Positions 104 to 6,064 of a DNA stretch of 6,064 nucleotides are shown piece after piece (the stretch's first letter is position 1; each line of letters opens with the position of its first letter). This DNA comes from Pseudomonadota bacterium (GTDB taxonomy: Bacteria > Pseudomonadota > Gammaproteobacteria > Acidiferrobacterales > Acidiferrobacteraceae). Below the pieces are notes generated by a model. That model saw nothing but the letters and a program-made list of their open reading frames with translations. It searched no databases and was not told the origin of the DNA. Made by a program: the position numbers and the translations under genes. The stretch covers positions 1 through 6,064 of the forward strand of contig JAJYPQ010000263.1 in assembly GCA_021795255.1 (NCBI GenBank), written 5' to 3'.

Positions 104-3100
104 GCACCCCCCTTGGATCTCTTCCGGATCAACCTCATACCGGTCTACATGCAACCCATGTTCCTCTAAGCCGAACAGTGGCATCCCTCCAAAAATCCTG
201 ATCGTGTAGGGCTTGCCTGTCAGGTTGTTGGCACCACGATTCCGCCCGATGGCCTGTACGGTTTCGCATGTCGAAAGCCGCAAGAAAAACTCGCGCATCC
301 TCTTATCGGTGGGGAGCGGGTGGCGGGATTCAACCCAGGCGCCACCCTCATCGATGTCCATGTACTCTTGAACCTCAACGGGGCCGTCTGGCTGTTCAGG
401 CCAGTCAGCGGGGTCGGCTCCTGCTGCCAGGGCCGCAATACGCGCACCCTGCCATGCAGCCGACCAGCCATGCTCCGGCGTGAAGTGTCCCCCGACGATT
501 ATCAGGTTTCTTTCAGCGAGATTGTTTTGGGCGCGATGTCCACCGCCAAAATGGTAAATTCGTTCATCTTCCATGTCAGGGTCAACCCCAAGCCGTGCCC
601 TCTTCATCCAGATGTGCCCATGATCGGGGAAGAGTTTTAAGAGGGCTTTGTGCTTAGCAATCGCGGCATCACGCGCACCCGGCTCTGCGTCATCGCGCCA
701 TGCGCCATGACCGAAGAATTGGGTCGGGTATCGGACGATAAGGGCATCTTGAAAGGCAACGGCATTGACCTCTTTCGCGCCGTTGGCCCTACAGATAGAG
801 AGCGTGACTGGGTCCGGTGTGGCATCACAAAAGACGGTCGGGAGTCGACCGACACGACCGATGATCGGTTTAGACGCCGCTACAACGATAGCCCCATCCT
901 CGACCCGTCCGCATCCGTACTTCAGTGACTCGCTGATGGCCCAGGCGGCACGCAATGGGGCATGGCGTAAGACGCCCTTGGGCCCAAAATCCAACGCTTC
1001 CCAAGCCGCAGTCTCACCACTCTTTCCTCGCGCTTCTAGGAGTTTGTCTATGACCTTCGAGAGCGCCAGGTCCACATTTATACGTCCGCTCTTGCCAACC
1101 AACCTTGAGAGTGAGTCTGAAAGCTGCGCAAAAAGAGGTTGTGCGGATTCCAGCACCTTCCGGTACTCCTCCAAATCCGAGCCGAGCGGTTTCTTCGCAA
1201 GATTTTTGAGTATGGCCGCCGCACGAGAGGCCCAAAAGTCCACATCCTGGTGGGTGATTAGGATCGTGTCGCTGAGGCCCGCGCCCTCGTCAAAAAACAC
1301 AAGAGCATCGATTGAGTCCTCTTCGTTTTCTGCGTACTCCGCTAAGGGCTCAGAATAACTCTGCGAACATGCCACAAAGGCTCGCGCCGCAAGCGCGTTC
1401 CGTAGGTGATCTTGCCAGCGGCATGGGATAATCTCCTCGATTTCCTCGGGGCTGAACTTCAATTTTAAAAGTGCGTTTTGCGCTTTGCCCCAACGTAAGG
1501 ACCCCGGTTTGTGGTGCCCCAGCGCCCATTTTAGCCCATTGGGGCAGGTCCTGCAGAACATGGCCTGTGTGTAGTTATGTTTTTGCTCAACCGCCTTCAT
1601 CATGTCCTTATGATTCGGGCAGTACGCACAATGCTCCGGGTCGGGGTTACGTCCCCAATAGTGGAACCAGCCCGCCGCTTCATAAGCGGCCGCCTGGCTG
1701 TGATCAGGAACAAAAACGCGGACGGCGCCGGTTGCCATGAGGCGGGCGTCGTGGATAAGGTCTTTCAGAAGCGTGGTCTTACCAACGCCAGTCGTGACCT
1801 TGAAAATCGCTAAAGGCGCGACCTTCGCGCTCTTCTTTTTGCGCTTCTTTTTGCCGTTGTCGTTGATCTCAGGTTCAGTGTCGTCTTCTGGCTCCAGCCA
1901 TTTGAGATACGCGTCCACAGTCGCCCGTAAGCCTTTTTCTAAGACCTTCCGTGCTTCCTCGACCGGCAGGACCTCAATCGGAGCAAAGGCTTCAGCACCC
2001 TGCTTCTTCCGCCAGTTCTTAATGTGCGCGGTCGAGGCCTTGGCTTTTGGTATCTCCCGAGGAACCTCGCGCCGTCCGGCTTCAACCGCAGCCCGCAATC
2101 CATCAACGCCGTCCTGCTCTAAAAAATCAAGAGGATCTTTATCCCGTCCTGGGGATGGGAGTACGAACCATTTAATGATGACCGGCAAGCCCCATTCTTG
2201 AATCTTCCTGACGCAATCCAGAGCCGCTTCTTCGCCCTTCTCGCCGGGATCTCCGACGACCCAAATCTCTTTGGCCCCTTTTGCGACGGCTCTTTCTGCG
2301 CTGGGACGAGATGGAACGCGCATGCCGTTCAAGTCAAACCCAGGGACCACCCATGCGTCTGTGTAGGCCACAGACATAGCTCCACCTGATCCCTGACCTT
2401 CCGTGTATATAAGCACCTTTCCCTTATCGCGTGGTGGGAAGACGAAGCTCGCAGCATGCCGTTCGTACTTACCTTTCTTGACTGGCACGAGATGACCGGC
2501 GACCGCCTTTTTGTTCTTGCCACCACGGCCCCATTCCCGCATGACCGAGACAAGTTTGCCGGTCGCCGGATCGCGGCGCGGCCATAAAAGGCAATGGGCG
2601 CGTTGACCCTTTTCCCCTATGTCCTTGTTCCAACTAAACTTATGGTTTCCAGGAAGCACTCGAACGCCAACGCGTATCGCAGCTTCGAGCATCCCGTCTC
2701 CGCGCCCATGTAGGTACTCCCGTGCCCAAAGGATCGCCTGAGACTGAACGCTCGCCAGCGCCCTCTCTTTCTGTCTCTTTGAGCGATTTGAGTTTAGGAT
2801 TTTTGTCTCTATTCCTCCATCTATGCGAAGGCCCATATCCCAGCACTTGATCGCGTCCGCTCTCCGGGTCGAGACATACTCATCGTCTTCTACGTGCTCG
2901 ATAGAGGCCCGTGGACCACCATCTAAGACTTTGCCGTCAAATATTCCAAGGAGAGTCTTAAGCTGTGACCAAGATCCTGAGCGGGGTTCGGCACTTGTCG
3001 CGTGGTCGGTCCAGCGCCCCGTGTCCTTTCTGACACTGACATTTTCCTTGACACCACCCCTCCATGTGGCCGCAATACGCAGGCGTGCGCCACTTCTTGA

Positions 3101-3157
3101 GAAGATGTGGATACCGGCGGCTTCGAGGGTTTGCTCGACGGTTAAGGGGGCGCTCAT
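62..3157 (-). CDS. Toprim primase-like / SF2 helicase fusion, probable replication protein (1031 aa)
   Basis: Large two-part DNA-processing protein, probably the element's replication primase-helicase. The N-terminal third ends in a Toprim-like domain at about residues 247-350: YTEGQGSGG with the conserved Glu at 253, WVVGDPGEKG with Asp303, and DPLDFLEQDG at 341-350. The second acid of the usual Toprim DxD appears to be Gly305, so catalysis may be altered. A lysine-rich linker (436-443) leads to an SF2-type helicase half: Walker A TTGVGKTT at 455-462 (Lys460), FVPDHS at 482-487, Walker B FFDEG with Asp623-Glu624, FCDATPD near 776-782, and motif VI-like VQAIGRNRG at 967-975. Cys510, 513, 535 and 538 form a CxxC-x21-CxxC pair that could hold zinc or an Fe-S cluster as in DinG/XPD-like helicases. 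The start is supported by a GGGGGT purine tract eight to nine bases upstream and by ATGA overlap with the preceding ORF, implying translational coupling. The 3' end runs into the 23-bp repeats. Function as replication protein is inferred from domains and context. Confidence 0.92.
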   Translation of the reverse strand: MSAPLTVEQTLEAAGIHIFSRSGARLRIAATWRGGVKENVSVRKDTGRWTDHATSAEPRSGSWSQLKTLLGIFDGKVLDGGPRASIEHVEDDEYVSTRRADAIKCWDMGLRIDGGIETKILNSNRSKRQKERALASVQSQAILWAREYLHGRGDGMLEAAIRVGVRVLPGNHKFSWNKDIGEKGQRAHCLLWPRRDPATGKLVSVMREWGRGGKNKKAVAGHLVPVKKGKYERHAASFVFPPRDKGKVLIYTEGQGSGGAMSVAYTDAWVVPGFDLNGMRVPSRPSAERAVAKGAKEIWVVGDPGEKGEEAALDCVRKIQEWGLPVIIKWFVLPSPGRDKDPLDFLEQDGVDGLRAAVEAGRREVPREIPKAKASTAHIKNWRKKQGAEAFAPIEVLPVEEARKVLEKGLRATVDAYLKWLEPEDDTEPEINDNGKKKRKKKSAKVAPLAIFKVTTGVGKTTLLKDLIHDARLMATGAVRVFVPDHSQAAAYEAAGWFHYWGRNPDPEHCAYCPNHKDMMKAVEQKHNYTQAMFCRTCPNGLKWALGHHKPGSLRWGKAQNALLKLKFSPEEIEEIIPCRWQDHLRNALAARAFVACSQSYSEPLAEYAENEEDSIDALVFFDEGAGLSDTILITHQDVDFWASRAAAILKNLAKKPLGSDLEEYRKVLESAQPLFAQLSDSLSRLVGKSGRINVDLALSKVIDKLLEARGKSGETAAWEALDFGPKGVLRHAPLRAAWAISESLKYGCGRVEDGAIVVAASKPIIGRVGRLPTVFCDATPDPVTLSICRANGAKEVNAVAFQDALIVRYPTQFFGHGAWRDDAEPGARDAAIAKHKALLKLFPDHGHIWMKRARLGVDPDMEDERIYHFGGGHRAQNNLAERNLIIVGGHFTPEHGWSAAWQGARIAALAAGADPADWPEQPDGPVEVQEYMDIDEGGAWVESRHPLPTDKRMREFFLRLSTCETVQAIGRNRGANNLTGKPYTIRIFGGMPLFGLEEHGLHVDRYEVDPEEIQGGCVFWPLVITHSDCS

Positions 3158-3477
3158 GGCGCACCCCCAAACTCAAACGCGGGGGGACTATATGTATAGT
3201 GTAGTCGTCGGGGCGGTTCGGGGTCTCCGCTAGAGTCTCCGCCGCTATCGCTCGTCGCCCGGCGCTGGGAGGCTGGCGAGCGTCGTGCACGGGCCCGGCT
3301 CTGGGTGCGGCATGTGTGGAAGAATACGGGGATCATTGTTCTCCGCCCAAGCCCACGGCGCCGACGGGCAGTCCACCAGGCGCGTTTAGCGCGGGCACGG
3401 CGTGCTTTATCCCAAAAGTCATTGGGCAGTGACAGAGATGTTGTAAAACAGGAATCTTCTGATAGAATGTTTGTCAT
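3154..3477 (-). CDS. Small arginine-rich protein, translationally coupled to the primase-helicase (107 aa)
   Basis: I do not recognise this protein. It has a short polar N-terminus, a very basic segment at about residues 23-46 (many Arg/Lys, with a WW pair at 34-35), a second Arg-rich stretch at 57-73, and an acidic/proline-rich tail. No enzyme motif or membrane segment is visible. Evidence that it is translated is mainly its start and end: AGGAGGG lies about seven bases before the ATG at 3477, and its TGA overlaps the ATG of the primase-helicase as ATGA. It could be a DNA- or RNA-binding accessory protein. It could also be mainly a coupling ORF whose translation lets ribosomes reach the primase-helicase start. 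Its first codons contain a plus-strand antisense promoter, and its ribosome binding site is in a hairpin loop, so it is probably the point where replication-gene expression is controlled (inference). The low-complexity composition leaves some doubt. Confidence 0.68.
   Translation of the reverse strand: MTNILSEDSCFTTSLSLPNDFWDKARRARAKRAWWTARRRRGLGRRTMIPVFFHTCRTQSRARARRSPASQRRATSDSGGDSSGDPEPPRRLHYTYSPPAFEFGGAP
3187..3200. promoter_or_regulatory. AT-rich perfect dyad upstream of the primase-helicase
   Basis: ACTATA and TATAGT are perfect inverted arms with a TG centre, 30-43 bases before the primase-helicase ATG. A second, overlapping pair GACTA (3186-3190) and TAGTC (3202-3206) extends it. It stands out in GC-rich surroundings and lies inside the end of the 107-codon ORF. 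It could be an operator or the -10 region of an internal minus-strand promoter (TATACA-like), but I see no good -35 partner, so the role is open. Confidence 0.3.
3441..3468 (+). promoter_or_regulatory. Candidate plus-strand promoter for an antisense RNA
   Basis: TTGTAA (3441-3446, 4 of 6 matches to TTGACA), a 16-base spacer and TAGAAT (3463-3468, 5 of 6 to TATAAT). The -10 is preceded by TG one base upstream (3460-3461), giving an extended -10, TGATAGAAT. Expected transcription start is near 3475. It lies on the strand opposite the early codons of the 107-codon ORF and points at the rho-independent terminator at 3510-3543, with no plus-strand gene in between. That arrangement suits a short regulatory RNA rather than an mRNA. 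Confidence 0.5.
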
Positions 3478-3502
3478 GCCGTTGCCCTCCTGAGGCTTCG
3501 GT
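3478..3502 (-). promoter_or_regulatory. Hairpin presenting the ribosome binding site of the 107-codon ORF
   Basis: On the minus-strand mRNA the arms are CCG-aa-GCC and GGC-aa-CGG, a symmetric stem with an AA/AA internal loop. The seven-base loop TCAGGAG contains the Shine-Dalgarno sequence. The stem ends directly at the ATG (3477). The 52-codon leader ORF stops at 3506-3508, a few bases upstream, so a ribosome terminating there would cover and open this hairpin. The stem is short (3+3 pairs) and its stability is not calculated. Confidence 0.5.
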
Positions 3503-3505
3503 GAT

Positions 3506-3664
3506 TTACCAAAAGGCCCGTCCTATACGGGCCTTTTGCTTTTGTGTACTGCCAAACAGCCTAGAGCGTTTTTCTAATGTCTGGAAGCCTATTTTTATCC
3601 ATCCAATATTCTGCATATTCCTGCACGCAAATGCACTTTGCGTGAAACATAGCGTGTTGAACAT
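3506..3664 (-). CDS. Candidate leader ORF (52 aa) ahead of the replication genes
   Basis: The ATG at 3662-3664 is preceded by AAGGAG (3671-3676) with six bases between, close to an ideal ribosome binding site. That site overlaps the TAA of the helix-turn-helix gene. The 52-residue product begins MFNTLCFTQS and ends KARIGRAFW. It is basic in its second half, and its last codons are the terminator hairpin itself. I do not recognise a family. The stop (3506-3508) is 28 bases before the ATG of the 107-codon ORF and just before the hairpin that holds that gene's ribosome binding site. This suggests a translated regulatory leader like the leader peptides of IncFII and IncI/B plasmids, where the act of translation matters more than the product (inference). 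Another ATG at 3667-3669 is only one base from the ribosome binding site and would give 23 codons; it is less likely. Confidence 0.45.
   Translation of the reverse strand: MFNTLCFTQSAFACRNMQNIGWIKIGFQTLEKRSRLFGSTQKQKARIGRAFW
3510..3543 (+). terminator. Rho-independent terminator (long perfect hairpin)
   Basis: Perfect 12-bp arms, 3510-3521 (CAAAAGGCCCGT) and 3527-3538 (ACGGGCCTTTTG), with a five-base loop CCTAT, then CTTTTG on the plus strand. Because of its AAAA/TTTT ends it can act in both directions. The plus-strand tail (TTTTGCTTTTG) is the better one. On the plus strand it ends the candidate antisense RNA. On the minus strand it lies inside the 52-codon leader ORF, only about 20 bases before the ribosome binding site of the next gene, where there is little room for another promoter. 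Minus-strand transcripts must therefore read through it, and leader translation could help by blocking hairpin formation. Confidence 0.75.
3624..3644. repeat. Perfect 8-bp inverted repeat inside the leader ORF
   Basis: CACGCAAA (3624-3631) and TTTGCGTG (3637-3644) flank a five-base centre, 21 bp in total. The size and symmetry fit an operator for a dimeric regulator, for instance the helix-turn-helix protein encoded just upstream. It could equally be an RNA hairpin in the leader of the replication mRNA. No second copy was noticed elsewhere in the window. Confidence 0.5.
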
Positions 3665-3674
3665 TGCATACTCC

Positions 3675-4427
3675 TTATGCCGCCTTGCCAAACAAATCCA
3701 CCTGCCCCTGTGCCACGGCACGCGGCGTCCGCGCACGTACCCCGATCTTGCGAAGCTTGCGCGGCTTCTGGGACTGCACGGGATCACCAAAAAGATCATA
3801 GATGGTTGCTGTCGTGATCTCAGTCTTGACCTTAGTCCTCGGTTTGCGCCCGGCGCGGCTAGGCGCCCGGCGGATCGCGACCTCGGTCGTGATGGGGTCG
3901 TCCAGGTGGCTGGCAGCCAACCCTGCCCCAAGACCGCACGCGTATTTTAATAGCTGATTGATTATGTTACGTACCTGCCTTGGCGTACGGCCGATCATCT
4001 TCCCTATATCTGCCGTACTCATCCCCCGAGCGAGCCCCACAAGCACATCCCAATTTTTATACGTCCTTGGGGTTAAAACTCGGACAGCGTTCCACTGGTC
4101 AATTGTAAGCATCTGCGCTGGCGCGATGCGGCGATGTTTACCCATCCTGCCCGGGCGCTCAAGGTCATAAACTGTAGTTTCCTTGGCCCGCCGCGCCTCC
4201 ACCCACGCCTCATGGTTTATTTCATCTCCATCAATATTTTGAGCCGGAGCAAACTCCCCCTGAGGCAGTTCCCCCCTCAAGAAATCCCACATCAATGAGG
4301 CAGCTGTTTTTTTCACACCAGCCCGCTCGCCATTCAAATAAACAGCCTCTGGGTCGTTGGCTGCTAGCCACGCGGCCGCCGGGTCAGGGCGTAAAAAATG
4401 GTAATGTTCAAACTGTCCGGTATTCAT
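3675..4427 (-). CDS. LuxR/GerE-like helix-turn-helix protein with C-terminal clamp-binding-like motif (250 aa)
   Basis: Probable DNA-binding regulator or replication accessory protein. Residues 118-165 (starting LTPRTYKNW, then GMSTADIGKMIGRTPRQVRN) match the pattern of a LuxR/GerE or sigma region 4 helix-turn-helix. There is no receiver or autoinducer-binding domain recognisable in front, so it is not a standard LuxR regulator. Residues 185-230 are rich in Arg, Lys and Pro. The C-terminus ends GQVDLFGKAA: QVDLF at 242-246 resembles the QL(S/D)LF peptide by which proteins bind the DNA polymerase III beta clamp, and a related YDLFG occurs at 210-214. The start at 4427 is chosen because AGGA lies about eight bases upstream. 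The longer in-frame ATG at 4496 would read a T-rich tract as a run of Phe inside a terminator-like hairpin region. Its stop overlaps the ribosome binding site of the 52-codon leader, so it probably shares an mRNA with the replication genes. Confidence 0.85.
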   Translation of the reverse strand: MNTGQFEHYHFLRPDPAAAWLAANDPEAVYLNGERAGVKKTAASLMWDFLRGELPQGEFAPAQNIDGDEINHEAWVEARRAKETTVYDLERPGRMGKHRRIAPAQMLTIDQWNAVRVLTPRTYKNWDVLVGLARGMSTADIGKMIGRTPRQVRNIINQLLKYACGLGAGLAASHLDDPITTEVAIRRAPSRAGRKPRTKVKTEITTATIYDLFGDPVQSQKPRKLRKIGVRARTPRAVAQGQVDLFGKAA

Positions 4428-4479
4428 GGCGTCGATCCTCGCACCAAAAAAGAAAAATGCTCGGCCGGGTCGGAGCGGG

Positions 4480-4505
4480 AAAAACAAAAGGCGCACGGAG
4501 GCGCC
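4480..4505 (-). terminator. Terminator/attenuator-like hairpin before the helix-turn-helix gene
   Basis: On the minus strand GGCGC (4505-4501) and GCGCC (4494-4490) form a five-base GC stem with a six-base loop, followed directly by TTTTGTTTTT (4489-4480). It lies about 55 bases upstream of the helix-turn-helix start, downstream of the candidate promoter at 4718-4745. It would therefore end that transcript early unless avoided. The stem is short, but the T-tract is good. Confidence 0.5.
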
Positions 4506-4539
4506 AGATTTGCCGGATTTTAGGCGCGCGAAAGCGCCT
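4501..4539 (-). promoter_or_regulatory. Possible antiterminator partner of the 4480-4505 hairpin
   Basis: AGGCGC (4539-4534) pairs with GCGCCT (4527-4522). The second of these can instead pair with GGCGC (4505-4501), which is the first arm of the terminator stem. This gives the 1:2, 2:3, 3:4 choice seen in attenuators. The segments are only five or six bases of GGCGC-type sequence, so chance pairing is possible. Confidence 0.3.
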
Positions 4540-4565
4540 GAGTGAAGCCATTTTTGGGAGATTTT

Positions 4566-4605
4566 AGGACCCGGAATTCAGGACGGATCTGTCCTGTGTG
4601 GTCCT
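4566..4605. repeat. Nested AGGAC inverted repeats
   Basis: AGGACC (4566-4571) pairs with GGTCCT (4600-4605). Inside it CAGGAC (4579-4584) pairs with GTCCTG (4591-4596) around GGATCT. Read on the plus strand the outer stem is followed by TTTT (4606-4609), but no plus-strand gene ends here. Read on the minus strand it falls in the leader of the helix-turn-helix gene. It may be an operator or an RNA structure. Confidence 0.4.
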
Positions 4606-4745
4606 TTTTCAACCCAGGCCAAGAAGGCGGGGTTGTAGAGGTAAGGCCGCTTAAGGCTTCGCATTGGTGCTGTTTTTATAACGCGCCCAGTTGACGCGAG
4701 GGTTGCCCCTAAGAAGAATGATAGCAACCACAGGAAAAACGTCAA
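4578..4745 (-). CDS. Candidate small single-span membrane protein, weak start (up to 55 aa)
   Basis: This frame is open from the TAG at about 4782 to a TGA at 4578-4580 and reads like protein. A hydrophobic run (FFLWLLSFFLGATLA) is followed by a basic stretch (RVIK, RSLKRP) and YLYNPAFLAWVEKGP, which follows the positive-inside pattern of a one-span membrane protein. No ATG precedes the hydrophobic part. The best start is TTG at 4745, with no clear ribosome binding site, and the first ATG (4664) leaves only 28 codons after the hydrophobic part. It may be a remnant of a gene that lost its start, a non-ATG small gene, or chance. The same bases hold a good promoter match, and the two readings compete. 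Confidence 0.27.
   Translation of the reverse strand: MTFFLWLLSFFLGATLASTGRVIKTAPMRSLKRPYLYNPAFLAWVEKGPHRTDPS
4718..4745 (-). promoter_or_regulatory. Candidate sigma-70 promoter for the helix-turn-helix operon
   Basis: On the minus strand TTGACG (4745-4740), a 16-base spacer and TATCAT (4723-4718), with an extended -10 TGC directly before it. Five of six bases match at each box. Expected start is near 4711, giving a leader of about 280 bases before the helix-turn-helix ATG at 4427. It is also the only place between the DUF3841 gene and that gene where I see a complete promoter. Beyond the items listed at 4480-4745, I see nothing further in the stretch 4428-4770. Confidence 0.45.
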
Positions 4746-4770
4746 GCCTATGCTTGCCAGCCAACCCGAT

Positions 4771-5439
4771 CTAAGTGGAAGGATCTAAGACTATATCGTC
4801 CTTACATATCTCAGCCAGAACCGCTTGAATAAACGGAGGGTGCGCCCCCCAAAGAAAGCCGCTCTCATGACCTAATTTCAGGTCGAATATCCTTTCCCAG
4901 CTCCCGCGGCAGTCTGGCTCAGGCGGAATCCGACAGGCCTGGCGCTCTCGCTCTCTCTCATCTTTCTCGGTTGCCGTAAGGTACGGCGGTATACTCCACA
5001 GGGGCGGCCATTTGCCGCCCGACTTTTCTATGTCGGAAAAGACACCAAGTATCTGCTCCCACGGTAAATAGAATGAAAAGAGTACGCGCTTTCGGGGTAC
5101 CGCGATTCGTAAGAGTACGCTTGGTGGAGGTAGACAAGCGGGCTGTAACAGGGTCGCCCAAATGGGCAGGTCGGGCACGTCGATCTTAAGGCGTGCTTTC
5201 ATTTGGTTAACCATCCAGGTGTAAGCGCGGCACTTTCCTAGCTTCCTCGACTCGTCGGTAGGGAAGGCGTGGGTGGGGTTGCCTCTCAACGGCACGCCAT
5301 TGTTTAGTTGCGCTACGGCATCGGTATGCTGGATGGTCCAGAGGGTCACGGGGTCGTCGGGTCCACAGGCCTCAATTTGGTGAAGTAACGCGGCCATCGT
5401 GGGAATTTGGGGATAGCAAATTGGCGCTGATACTTCCAT
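4771..5439 (-). CDS. DUF3841-family protein (222 aa)
   Basis: The sequence follows the DUF3841 pattern: VTLWTIQHTDAVAQL (31-45), LRGNP (51-55), AYTWMVNQMKARL (72-84), a PIWA element (92-95), a beta-rich VLLRIAVPRKRVLFSFYLPWEQIL (108-131, described here in part), and the typical C-terminal SWERIFDLKL (180-189) followed by FIQAVLAEI (203-211). This covers the whole family length. The function of DUF3841 is not established as far as I know, and no catalytic motif is obvious. The start at 5439 has AAAGGAA about 11 bases upstream, a loose spacing. A second ATG at residue 15 lacks a ribosome binding site but would keep the complete domain. The gene follows the Mrr endonuclease gene by 57 bases on the same strand, so co-transcription is likely. 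A role linked to that restriction enzyme is only suggested by position. Confidence 0.85.
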   Translation of the reverse strand: MEVSAPICYPQIPTMAALLHQIEACGPDDPVTLWTIQHTDAVAQLNNGVPLRGNPTHAFPTDESRKLGKCRAYTWMVNQMKARLKIDVPDLPIWATLLQPACLPPPSVLLRIAVPRKRVLFSFYLPWEQILGVFSDIEKSGGKWPPLWSIPPYLTATEKDERERERQACRIPPEPDCRGSWERIFDLKLGHESGFLWGAHPPFIQAVLAEICKDDIVLDPST

Positions 5440-5460
5440 GAGTTTCGGGTTTCCTTTGCC

Positions 5461-5502
5461 CGCCTAGGCGTAATGTAGTATCAAGAACTGAGTATCTTAC
5501 TC
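5461..5502. promoter_or_regulatory. Two short dyads between the Mrr and DUF3841 genes
   Basis: CGCCTAGGCG (5461-5470) is a perfect 10-bp palindrome. GAGTA-tct-TACTC (5490-5502) is an inverted repeat that spans the Mrr stop codon. They may be operator sites, but I see no convincing promoter between them and they are short enough to be accidental. Confidence 0.25.
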
Positions 5503-6064
5503 AAAAAACTCCTCATCCACGGCCTTGCTGTAAAAGGTCTCCTGGAGCCGGCAACCAACGTTGTGCTGAATCATGAGGCGCGCAAGCGTTTTGCCGTCAA
5601 TGAGTACGAGCCGTTTGCTCAAATGCTCCGCAGTCTCGCGGGCGGATGTCGAGAATCGGGACGTTGTCACAAAAAGCCCCTTGCTGGCCTTAACGCGATC
5701 GAGGCTCCCAAAGAAGTCCCGGATGGCGCCGGCCCCCACCGGGTTATCCTCCGCATAGCGTTTGGCCTGGACATAAATACGATCCAGTCCTAAAGGGTCC
5801 TGATCGATCACGCCATCGATACCATTGTCACCACTGCCACCCACCAGCGCCTGATCCACCTGCGCTACCGTCCCTCCATAGCCCATAGCGATCAGGAGGC
5901 TTACGATGAGCTTCTCAAAGAAGGCAGGTGTCCCAGCGCAGATCCGTTGCAGAAGTTCGACGGCAAGCCCCCGCTCCATCTCCTCGTGGGTCGCCCGCAG
6001 GATTTCATCGGGGGTGAGGGTCGGGTGCGCCAAAAGGGGCGGGGGTGCCAGCACCTCCTTGCCC
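5497..6064 (-). CDS. mrr: Mrr-family restriction endonuclease, C-terminal part (cut by window edge)
   Basis: Type IV-like restriction endonuclease of the Mrr family, which cuts DNA carrying foreign methylation. The visible 189 codons are the C-terminal catalytic Mrr_cat domain. Counting from the GTG at 6054, they show PAFFEKLIVSLLIAMGYGG (43-61), VGGSGDNGIDGVI (71-83) with the catalytic Asp80, YVQAKRY (94-100) with the QxK pair Gln96 and Lys98 of the PD-(D/E)xK fold, IRDFFGSL (111-118), GLFVTTSRFS (126-135) and VLIDGKTLARLMIQHNVG (150-167). The usual GDGGIDG is GDNGIDG here, and the active-site residues are intact. The frame stays open to the last base of the window. The GTG at 6054 has AAGGAG immediately against it with no spacing, so it is not a credible start, and the N-terminal winged-helix domain probably lies beyond the edge. 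It is probably in an operon with the DUF3841 gene. Confidence 0.93.
   Translation of the reverse strand, partial: GKEVLAPPPLLAHPTLTPDEILRATHEEMERGLAVELLQRICAGTPAFFEKLIVSLLIAMGYGGTVAQVDQALVGGSGDNGIDGVIDQDPLGLDRIYVQAKRYAEDNPVGAGAIRDFFGSLDRVKASKGLFVTTSRFSTSARETAEHLSKRLVLIDGKTLARLMIQHNVGCRLQETFYSKAVDEEFFE

Follow-up and report, generated by a model that had tools for sequence, protein, structure and literature searches.

The plus strand of the DNA analysed here, a stretch of 6,064 nucleotides (nt) from a bacterium of the Acidiferrobacteraceae (contig JAJYPQ010000263.1, assembly GCA_021795255.1; hereafter the window), carries a promoter, a two-hairpin RNA and a terminator opposite the translation start of a leader open reading frame (ORF) that runs into a primase-helicase gene, and this feature is confirmed as real. 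It probably specifies a countertranscribed RNA that would block the leader ORF and thereby also the primase-helicase, as in the CopA/Tap/RepA system. The computed basis of this reading consists of parts conserved among related loci, covariation, selection on codon choice and a hairpin at the helicase start.

Antisense signals opposite the leader ORF

3441..3468, plus strand: antisense promoter, TTGTAA, 16-nt spacer and TG-A-TAGAAT (extended -10), within codons 4-13 of the target ORF
3475..3545, plus strand: predicted antisense (countertranscribed) RNA of about 70 nt, its start placed from the -10 and its end from the terminator
3478..3502, plus strand: first stem-loop, with the anti-Shine-Dalgarno CTCCTGA in the loop region
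3510..3545, plus strand: rho-independent terminator, stem 3510-3538 plus U-rich tail
3154..3477, minus strand: target leader ORF, 107 amino acids, with its N-terminal stretch and C-terminal DSGGD..PEPPR motif conserved and its middle variable
3486..3491, minus strand: Shine-Dalgarno AGGAGG of the leader ORF, read from the sequence
3146..3168, minus strand: predicted coupling hairpin of the messenger RNA (mRNA), GGGGGTGC-GCCATGA-GCGCCCCC, whose loop holds the helicase start codon and the leader stop codon
62..3157, minus strand: primase-helicase gene, 1031 amino acids, with an N-terminal DnaG-type primase part

The preliminary description of this stretch had proposed a plus-strand promoter with an extended -10, which is borne out by a -35 TTGTAA (3441-3446) and a -10 TAGAAT (3463-3468) standing 16 nt apart, with TG at 3460-3461. 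The terminator that it had called perfect comprises 12 perfect pairs (7 G-C) and a loop of 5, followed by the tail CTTTTGTGTA, in which the U run is interrupted; the distance of about 70 bases given between promoter and terminator needs correction, since 41 nt separate the -10 from the stem and it is the RNA that is about 70 nt long. Read from 3475, this RNA forms two hairpins when folded (-31.6 kcal/mol, z -5.0), a stability equalled by none of 200 shuffles, and it is complementary to the ribosome-binding site and the start codon of the 107-codon ORF, as had been claimed for the ORF coupled to the helicase. The further claim that the first stem-loop exposes CTCCTGA holds in part: the motif (3487-3493) does sit in the loop region, but the stem is weak, with short helices flanking a 2x2 internal loop, and the motif is complementary to part of the Shine-Dalgarno sequence (3486-3491, minus strand).

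Scans of the whole window for single signals returned 6 promoter-like matches, against 2.8 ± 1.6 expected, and 15 terminator-like ones, against 5.9 ± 2.5, counts that exceed chance only moderately. The pair is rarer: with thresholds fixed once the feature had been seen, the combination of an extended -10 promoter and a long terminator at most 90 nt downstream occurs once in the window and in none of 1500 order-1 Markov sequences of equal length. A convergent promoter and a terminator enclosing a short structured RNA that is fully complementary to a rep leader, the sequence marks of the countertranscribed copy-control class, are all found here.

Transcription, pairing, translational block, coupling and replication control, which are inferred from sequence, would proceed as follows. 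The plus strand would encode a cis-antisense RNA of about 70 nt, transcribed from a promoter that lies within the opening codons of its own target and ending at the terminator just upstream of the ribosome-binding site of that target. The RNA would pair with the mRNA leader, with first contact probably made through the anti-Shine-Dalgarno loop and the single-stranded spacer, and pairing would hide the Shine-Dalgarno sequence and AUG of the leader ORF and stop its translation. With the helicase start region enclosed in an mRNA hairpin and an AUGA overlap joining the two ORFs, ribosomes would have to complete the leader before the start of the helicase could open; a block of the leader would therefore also turn off the primase-helicase, the presumed replication protein, and the result would be a dosage-dependent negative feedback on replication.

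Related loci and competing explanations

The protein collection contains six relatives of the helicase (41-72% identity), and genome contigs supplied six loci; at an E value of 1e-10, the helicase is found in 7 of the 18 genomes of the bacterial family of locus L002, the earlier ones included. The upstream regions of 13 helicase loci were examined (window, L002, L003, L004, L005, L006, L027, L028, L030, L039, L040, L041 and L042), L005 and L006 being close copies. A hairpin scan reaching up to 1200 nt upstream found a terminator in the equivalent place in the window, L002, L003 and L041; other terminator-like hairpins lie upstream in the antisense direction in L002, L003, L030 and L040 and in the sense direction in L003, L028, L040 and L041, none of them in the equivalent place. 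A covariance model built from the window, L002 and L003 and run over 24 sources located two further loci in the right place, L042 (64.7 bits) and L041 (30.9 bits), the second counted because of its position and not its score; the comparison across homologues that had been suggested as a check thereby yields two more loci as well as compensatory changes.

The antisense RNA is present in five of the 13 loci (window, L002, L003, L041 and L042), and in these five, spread over two distant helicase clades, the promoter, anti-Shine-Dalgarno hairpin, spacer and terminator hold the same place. The antisense promoter keeps its position and spacing in L002, L003 and L042 and is a looser match in L041. 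By eye, the anti-Shine-Dalgarno bases lie in or next to the loop of the first hairpin in each of the five (CTCCTGA, CCTCGTGAT, CCACTAT, CTCTGGA and CTCCCA), with CTCC spanning stem and loop in the CCACTAT locus. The ORF and the RNA are arranged differently in two of the loci. In L042 the RNA lies further upstream owing to an insertion sequence (about 3925-5245, by eye) that interrupts the leader ORF downstream of the RNA and should break the coupling in that copy; the same genome has another copy, L097, whose RNA body is identical and whose contig ends at the promoter, and this copy was not counted. In L041 (4776-7976) the leader ORF and the primase-helicase are fused in frame, and the antisense RNA stands at the start of the fused ORF. 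Across 57 genomes of the order, 36 contain a model match at E of at most 1 and only five matches exceed 30 bits, all of them in these elements; among 369 genomes sampled from the class, two more matches (42.1 and 38.4 bits) read as ordinary terminators. On reading, the model matches L098, L099, L105 and L106 look like ordinary terminators and were rejected.

In the model-fitted alignment of the five sequences, standard pairs fill 91.1% of 90 cells (shuffles 78.5 ± 2.8), two-sided changes occur in 8 of 18 pairs (shuffles 4.0 ± 1.1) and the covariation score is 0.450 (shuffles 0.215 ± 0.047); none of 500 shuffles reaches the values for pairing, two-sided changes or covariation, and sliding the partners lowers every measure. 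Such counts alone do not identify the strand, and the mRNA strand folds too (z -5.0, -3.1, -4.9 and -1.4 in four loci), as would be expected if the hairpins acted in the mRNA, either as a structure of the 5' untranslated region or as a protein-binding operator for the leader ORF, with no separate RNA. This explanation is nevertheless improbable, given that the antisense strand is the more stable in all five loci (-31.6, -35.4, -32.9, -33.1 and -29.0 kcal/mol versus -30.3, -24.2, -31.8, -31.3 and -24.0 for the mRNA strand, the differences being small in three), that it has more G-U pairs in four of five (A-C in the mRNA), and that the T-rich tail is longer or richer on its side in five of five. 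The occurrence in five loci and two helicase clades, the compensatory changes and this strand bias support the countertranscribed-RNA architecture put forward in the preliminary description.

A stem flanked by A and T runs on both sides might also terminate or attenuate transcription in the sense direction, between the leader ORF and the genes upstream of it, and perhaps in both directions, with any antisense RNA acting by attenuation as in pT181 or pIP501. The sense side of L042 reads TTTTTT, in line with this possibility, but in the other four loci the tails on that side are TTTTGG, TTCCC, TTTCG and TTTATA and are not kept, and the hairpin stands only about 30 nt from the leader ATG; a role of this kind is accordingly rated a little lower still than a structure acting in the mRNA.

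Codon choice bears both on the strand and on chance. With the amino acids of codons 1-15 fixed and codons drawn at random (20000 draws for each null), the antisense promoter score summed over the five loci, 45, was reached in none of the 20000 draws under any of three nulls, whose means were 30.1 ± 3.8 (gene-wide codon usage), 30.8 ± 3.9 (5'-end usage, in which the leader ORF of L003 was itself one of the 39 ORFs) and 32.7 ± 3.9 (uniform synonymous). Of 38 control ORFs, taken by a mechanical rule from ten loci, 1 scores at least 8 (a 9) and none scores 10. Codon choice in the first 15 codons of the leader ORF favours the antisense promoter beyond amino-acid needs, and thus maintains a promoter aimed into the hairpins, a further point against their acting in the mRNA.

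In a family of 18 further leader proteins, compared at the protein level for most of them, a start of about 14 residues and the C-terminus are conserved and the middle is variable; position 5, the -10 codon, is I or L in 17 of the 18 by eye (P0013 read from an internal Met, P0011 the exception), and P0026, whose start is that of the leader protein of L003, is not independent. A conserved N-terminal peptide of this kind could yield the promoter-like match as a by-product and leave the pairing of signals a coincidence, and single loci are not all striking, with fractions ranging from 0.001 to 0.15, the upper value under the mildest null. Coincidence is nonetheless very unlikely: the nulls that hold the peptide fixed never attain the observed sum, and the terminator and the first hairpin each show two-sided changes of their own. 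The C-terminal motif of the leader proteins (P0009-P0026) reads ARRSPASxRRATxDSGGDxxGDPEPPR...GGAL, and the last codons overlap the ribosome-binding site of the helicase.

Several points weigh against an antisense RNA that controls the leader ORF. The RNA is lacking in 8 of the 13 helicase loci; the score of L041, 30.9 bits, is lower than those of the genome-wide chance matches (42.1 and 38.4); L003 and L042 share leader sequence, and the loci are therefore not fully independent; the covariation alignment was fitted to the structure and three of its five rows are in the model, and this evidence is supportive rather than conclusive; in L042 the U tail is imperfect and the mRNA-side tail is T-rich too; and the candidate sense promoters score no higher than shuffled sequence in any of the five loci. 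Homologous elements that keep the genes and lose the RNA had been named in advance as a refuting case. They do occur, in these eight loci, but the target start is also gone or changed where read: by eye, the coding region of a helix-turn-helix (HTH) protein reaches close to the helicase in L039, L040 and L030, which have no such leader ORF, and L006 has an overlapping ORF with a different start. Among the loci called RNA-less, L004 was read in part, and L005, L027 and L028 were judged from scans alone.

The presumed replication operon and its possible mobility

Five ORFs are prominent in the window, all on the minus strand: an Mrr-type endonuclease, a DUF3841 protein, an HTH protein, the 107-amino-acid ORF and the 1031-amino-acid primase-helicase. 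Two further features lie upstream of the leader ORF:

3675..4427, minus strand: neighbouring HTH protein gene; similar HTH ORFs stand upstream in L003, L042, L097 and L039 (by eye)
3558..3586, minus strand: weak candidate sense promoter, TTCCAG-17-TAGGCT, opposing the antisense promoter and placed by its position in relatives

The leader ORF and the helicase overlap as ATGA in the window, L002 and L003. Of the 12 loci folded at the helicase start, 9 have a complete stem (8 of 8 pairs) of the form GGGGGTGC-nnnATGA-GCGCCCCC, its loop holding the start codon (window, L002, L003, L042, L004, L005, L006, L039 and L028, the last with a G-C to A-T compensation); among the same 12, the hairpin is not formed in L040 (6 of 8 pairs, other sequence), L030 (2 of 8) or L027 (5 of 8), the chosen helicase start codon being uncertain in L040 and L030. 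A conserved U-G pair of this hairpin holds in the mRNA alone, a strand bias opposite to that of the antisense RNA. Because this 8-bp stem would close off the helicase start in the mRNA, the helicase is probably translated only where the leader ORF is translated first; since the hairpin is also found in RNA-less loci, it is not evidence for the RNA itself.

The Toprim and primase label given earlier to the large protein agrees with its best three fold matches, all DnaG-type primase domains (predicted structure), with its PHROG match, a DNA primase, and with Toprim_3 matches below the Pfam cut-off in six of six relatives. The AlphaFold model has a mean pLDDT of 50.2 and is low in the helicase part, and the N-terminal part alone was used. 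The window protein itself has no Pfam match and no helicase family match over its presumed SF2 helicase part; the motifs GVGKTT, DEGA and QAIGRNRG resemble helicase motifs. The Protein Data Bank contains no sequence relative, and no curated family was found for this primase-helicase. CyRepA1 was rejected as a homologue at an hhalign probability of 0.1%, and NF042913 (CyRepA1) matched neither the window protein (P0001) nor six tested relatives, whereas it did match the control CyRepA1. That the primase-helicase is the replication protein of the element is presumed by inference.

The C-terminus of the window helicase is truncated relative to its relatives, which have the last 115-120 residues or so where the window has tandem 23-bp repeats (GTGATCAC, four copies, 12-100, at the left contig end); these repeats may be iterons, or may mark a recombination junction or the end of the assembly. 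At the other end of the protein, the helicases of L002 (636-4034) and L003 (5035-8379) start with a zinc-finger-like CPAHDD..C..GC segment that the window protein does not have, a difference that suggests a swap of the N-terminal part. The DUF3841 protein and the Mrr-type endonuclease (4771-6063) adjoin the replication module and are possibly defence cargo. On the minus strand at 3506-3661, a 52-codon reading frame with a Shine-Dalgarno-like sequence enters the terminator hairpin and stops just beyond it; it was not seen in the same form in L002 or L003 (by eye).

In a helicase tree of 18 proteins, in which long branches meet, the RNA-bearing loci fall into two separate, well-supported groups, one with the window, L002 and L003 (among rows without an assigned RNA status) and the other with L041 and L042, and RNA-less loci stand between them; at least two gains or losses of the RNA are forced by this tree. 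The leader start of L042 (MTEIIAENPGFASP) is similar to that of L003 (MTEIIAENPQNTSP), and their helicases belong to different clades; this likeness offers a lead, and no more, towards a control cassette that may move separately from the helicase. A broader proposal, which is tentative and at present the less probable side of the question, is that the antisense RNA, the leader ORF with the promoter in its first 13 codons and the coupling hairpin that sequesters the Shine-Dalgarno sequence form a replication-control cassette of mobile elements, transferable among distant primase-helicases without the helicase itself, in which the RNA loop and not the Rep would set coexistence and the leader N-terminus would be conserved mainly as a promoter of the opposite strand.

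Tyrosine integrases (L102, L097), a TrwC relaxase (L039) and a TrwB-type coupling protein together with a ParA-like protein (both L101) were read on the contigs of relatives, and two RNA-less relatives lie within a 3.4-Mb contig. These genes, which share contigs with the loci and are not assigned to the same elements, suggest integrative, mobilizable or conjugative elements, or related plasmids. The helicase had no match in viral contigs (protein and A1 queries) or in phages, and in plasmids a single partial match, to pTcM1 of Acidithiobacillus caldus; the L003 helicase gave only partial matches, in 9 records. In plasmids the leader ORF and the HTH protein had no match, nor did a search with the control-region DNA return any. 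A DNA pattern search of viral contigs gave 15 matches, none with the architecture, and a second pattern gave one, from which the architecture was absent. The RNA alone had four weak matches in plasmids, the best of which, in a Xanthomonas plasmid, was examined and rejected (27.3 bits, downstream of parC and read as the terminator of a partition operon).

Known copy-control systems and meaning

The copy-control RNA families of Rfam include CopA, RNAI, ctRNA and FinP. An Rfam cmscan of the window up to an E value of 1 returned two unrelated families and no copy-control RNA family, and the FinO/ProQ domain PF04352, looked for because RNAs of the FinP/RepX type depend on such proteins, was found in none of five related genomes, drafts among them. 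In logic, the nearest known system is CopA/tap/repA of the IncFII plasmid R1, which differs in its Rep; the system of the window also has a long leader ORF, whose first codons contain the antisense promoter. In form the nearest is RepX of RSF1010, and in gene type the pSYSA and pSYSX systems.

According to excerpts of PMC8136791, RepX of RSF1010/R1162 (IncQ-1) is a 75-nt antisense RNA with two stem-loops over the ribosome-binding site and start of repA-repC, and mutations raise the copy number. Its target repA is annotated as a helicase, and by eye the start of repA in pRSF1010 (L108 2790-2900, antisense strand) presents the same order of start codon, anti-Shine-Dalgarno hairpin, GGTGGTTA spacer and GC-rich hairpin. 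RepX differs in facing repA directly, with no leader ORF, and RepA, RepB and RepC are separate proteins; homology was rejected, the covariance model having no match in the rep region of pRSF1010 (1900-3400). A review lists RSF1010 without an antisense system (excerpt of PMC12361487), in conflict with PMC8136791, which is followed here because its excerpted text cites experiments.

On pSYSA, asRNA1 adjoins the primase-helicase CyRepA1, and the likeness lies in a primase-helicase Rep preceded by a small ORF (ssr7036) and its cis-antisense RNA; the differences are that asRNA1 is about 150 nt long, lies over the coding part of the small ORF and has a proposed action on a primer (excerpts of PMC9978351). 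The covariance model had no match in the rep region of pSYSA. The antisense RNAs of pSYSX have their 5' starts some 25 nt downstream of where CyRepX translation begins and an accessible anti-Shine-Dalgarno, with regulation offered as a hypothesis (excerpts of PMC10899382). Elsewhere, an antisense RNAI controls rep translation in I-complex plasmids (excerpts of PMC10724649), and RNAII of pMV158 is a very small antisense RNA that inhibits rep translation (excerpts of PMC4485353) but differs in having one hairpin, in serving a rolling-circle replicon and in being partnered with the repressor CopG. The earlier remark that no described case with this gene type was known therefore needs correction, since RSF1010 RepX and pSYSA asRNA1, as far as the excerpted sources go, precede it on helicase-type replication genes. 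No description of this particular RNA was found in the open-access literature, in a search that covered top results alone and left subscription papers mostly outside, and the family is apparently undescribed, a known control logic in a new combination.

If the reading is correct, this would be a new family of countertranscribed RNA, unrelated in sequence to the tested Rfam families and tied to a primase-helicase, and it would extend RNA-based control of replication to elements whose relatives adjoin genes for integrases and conjugation. The fusion of the two frames in L041 would serve as a natural experiment, the RNA there having kept to the beginning of the translated unit. The leader ORF would carry the promoter of its own repressor within its opening codons, a case of dual coding that is testable at the level of codons.
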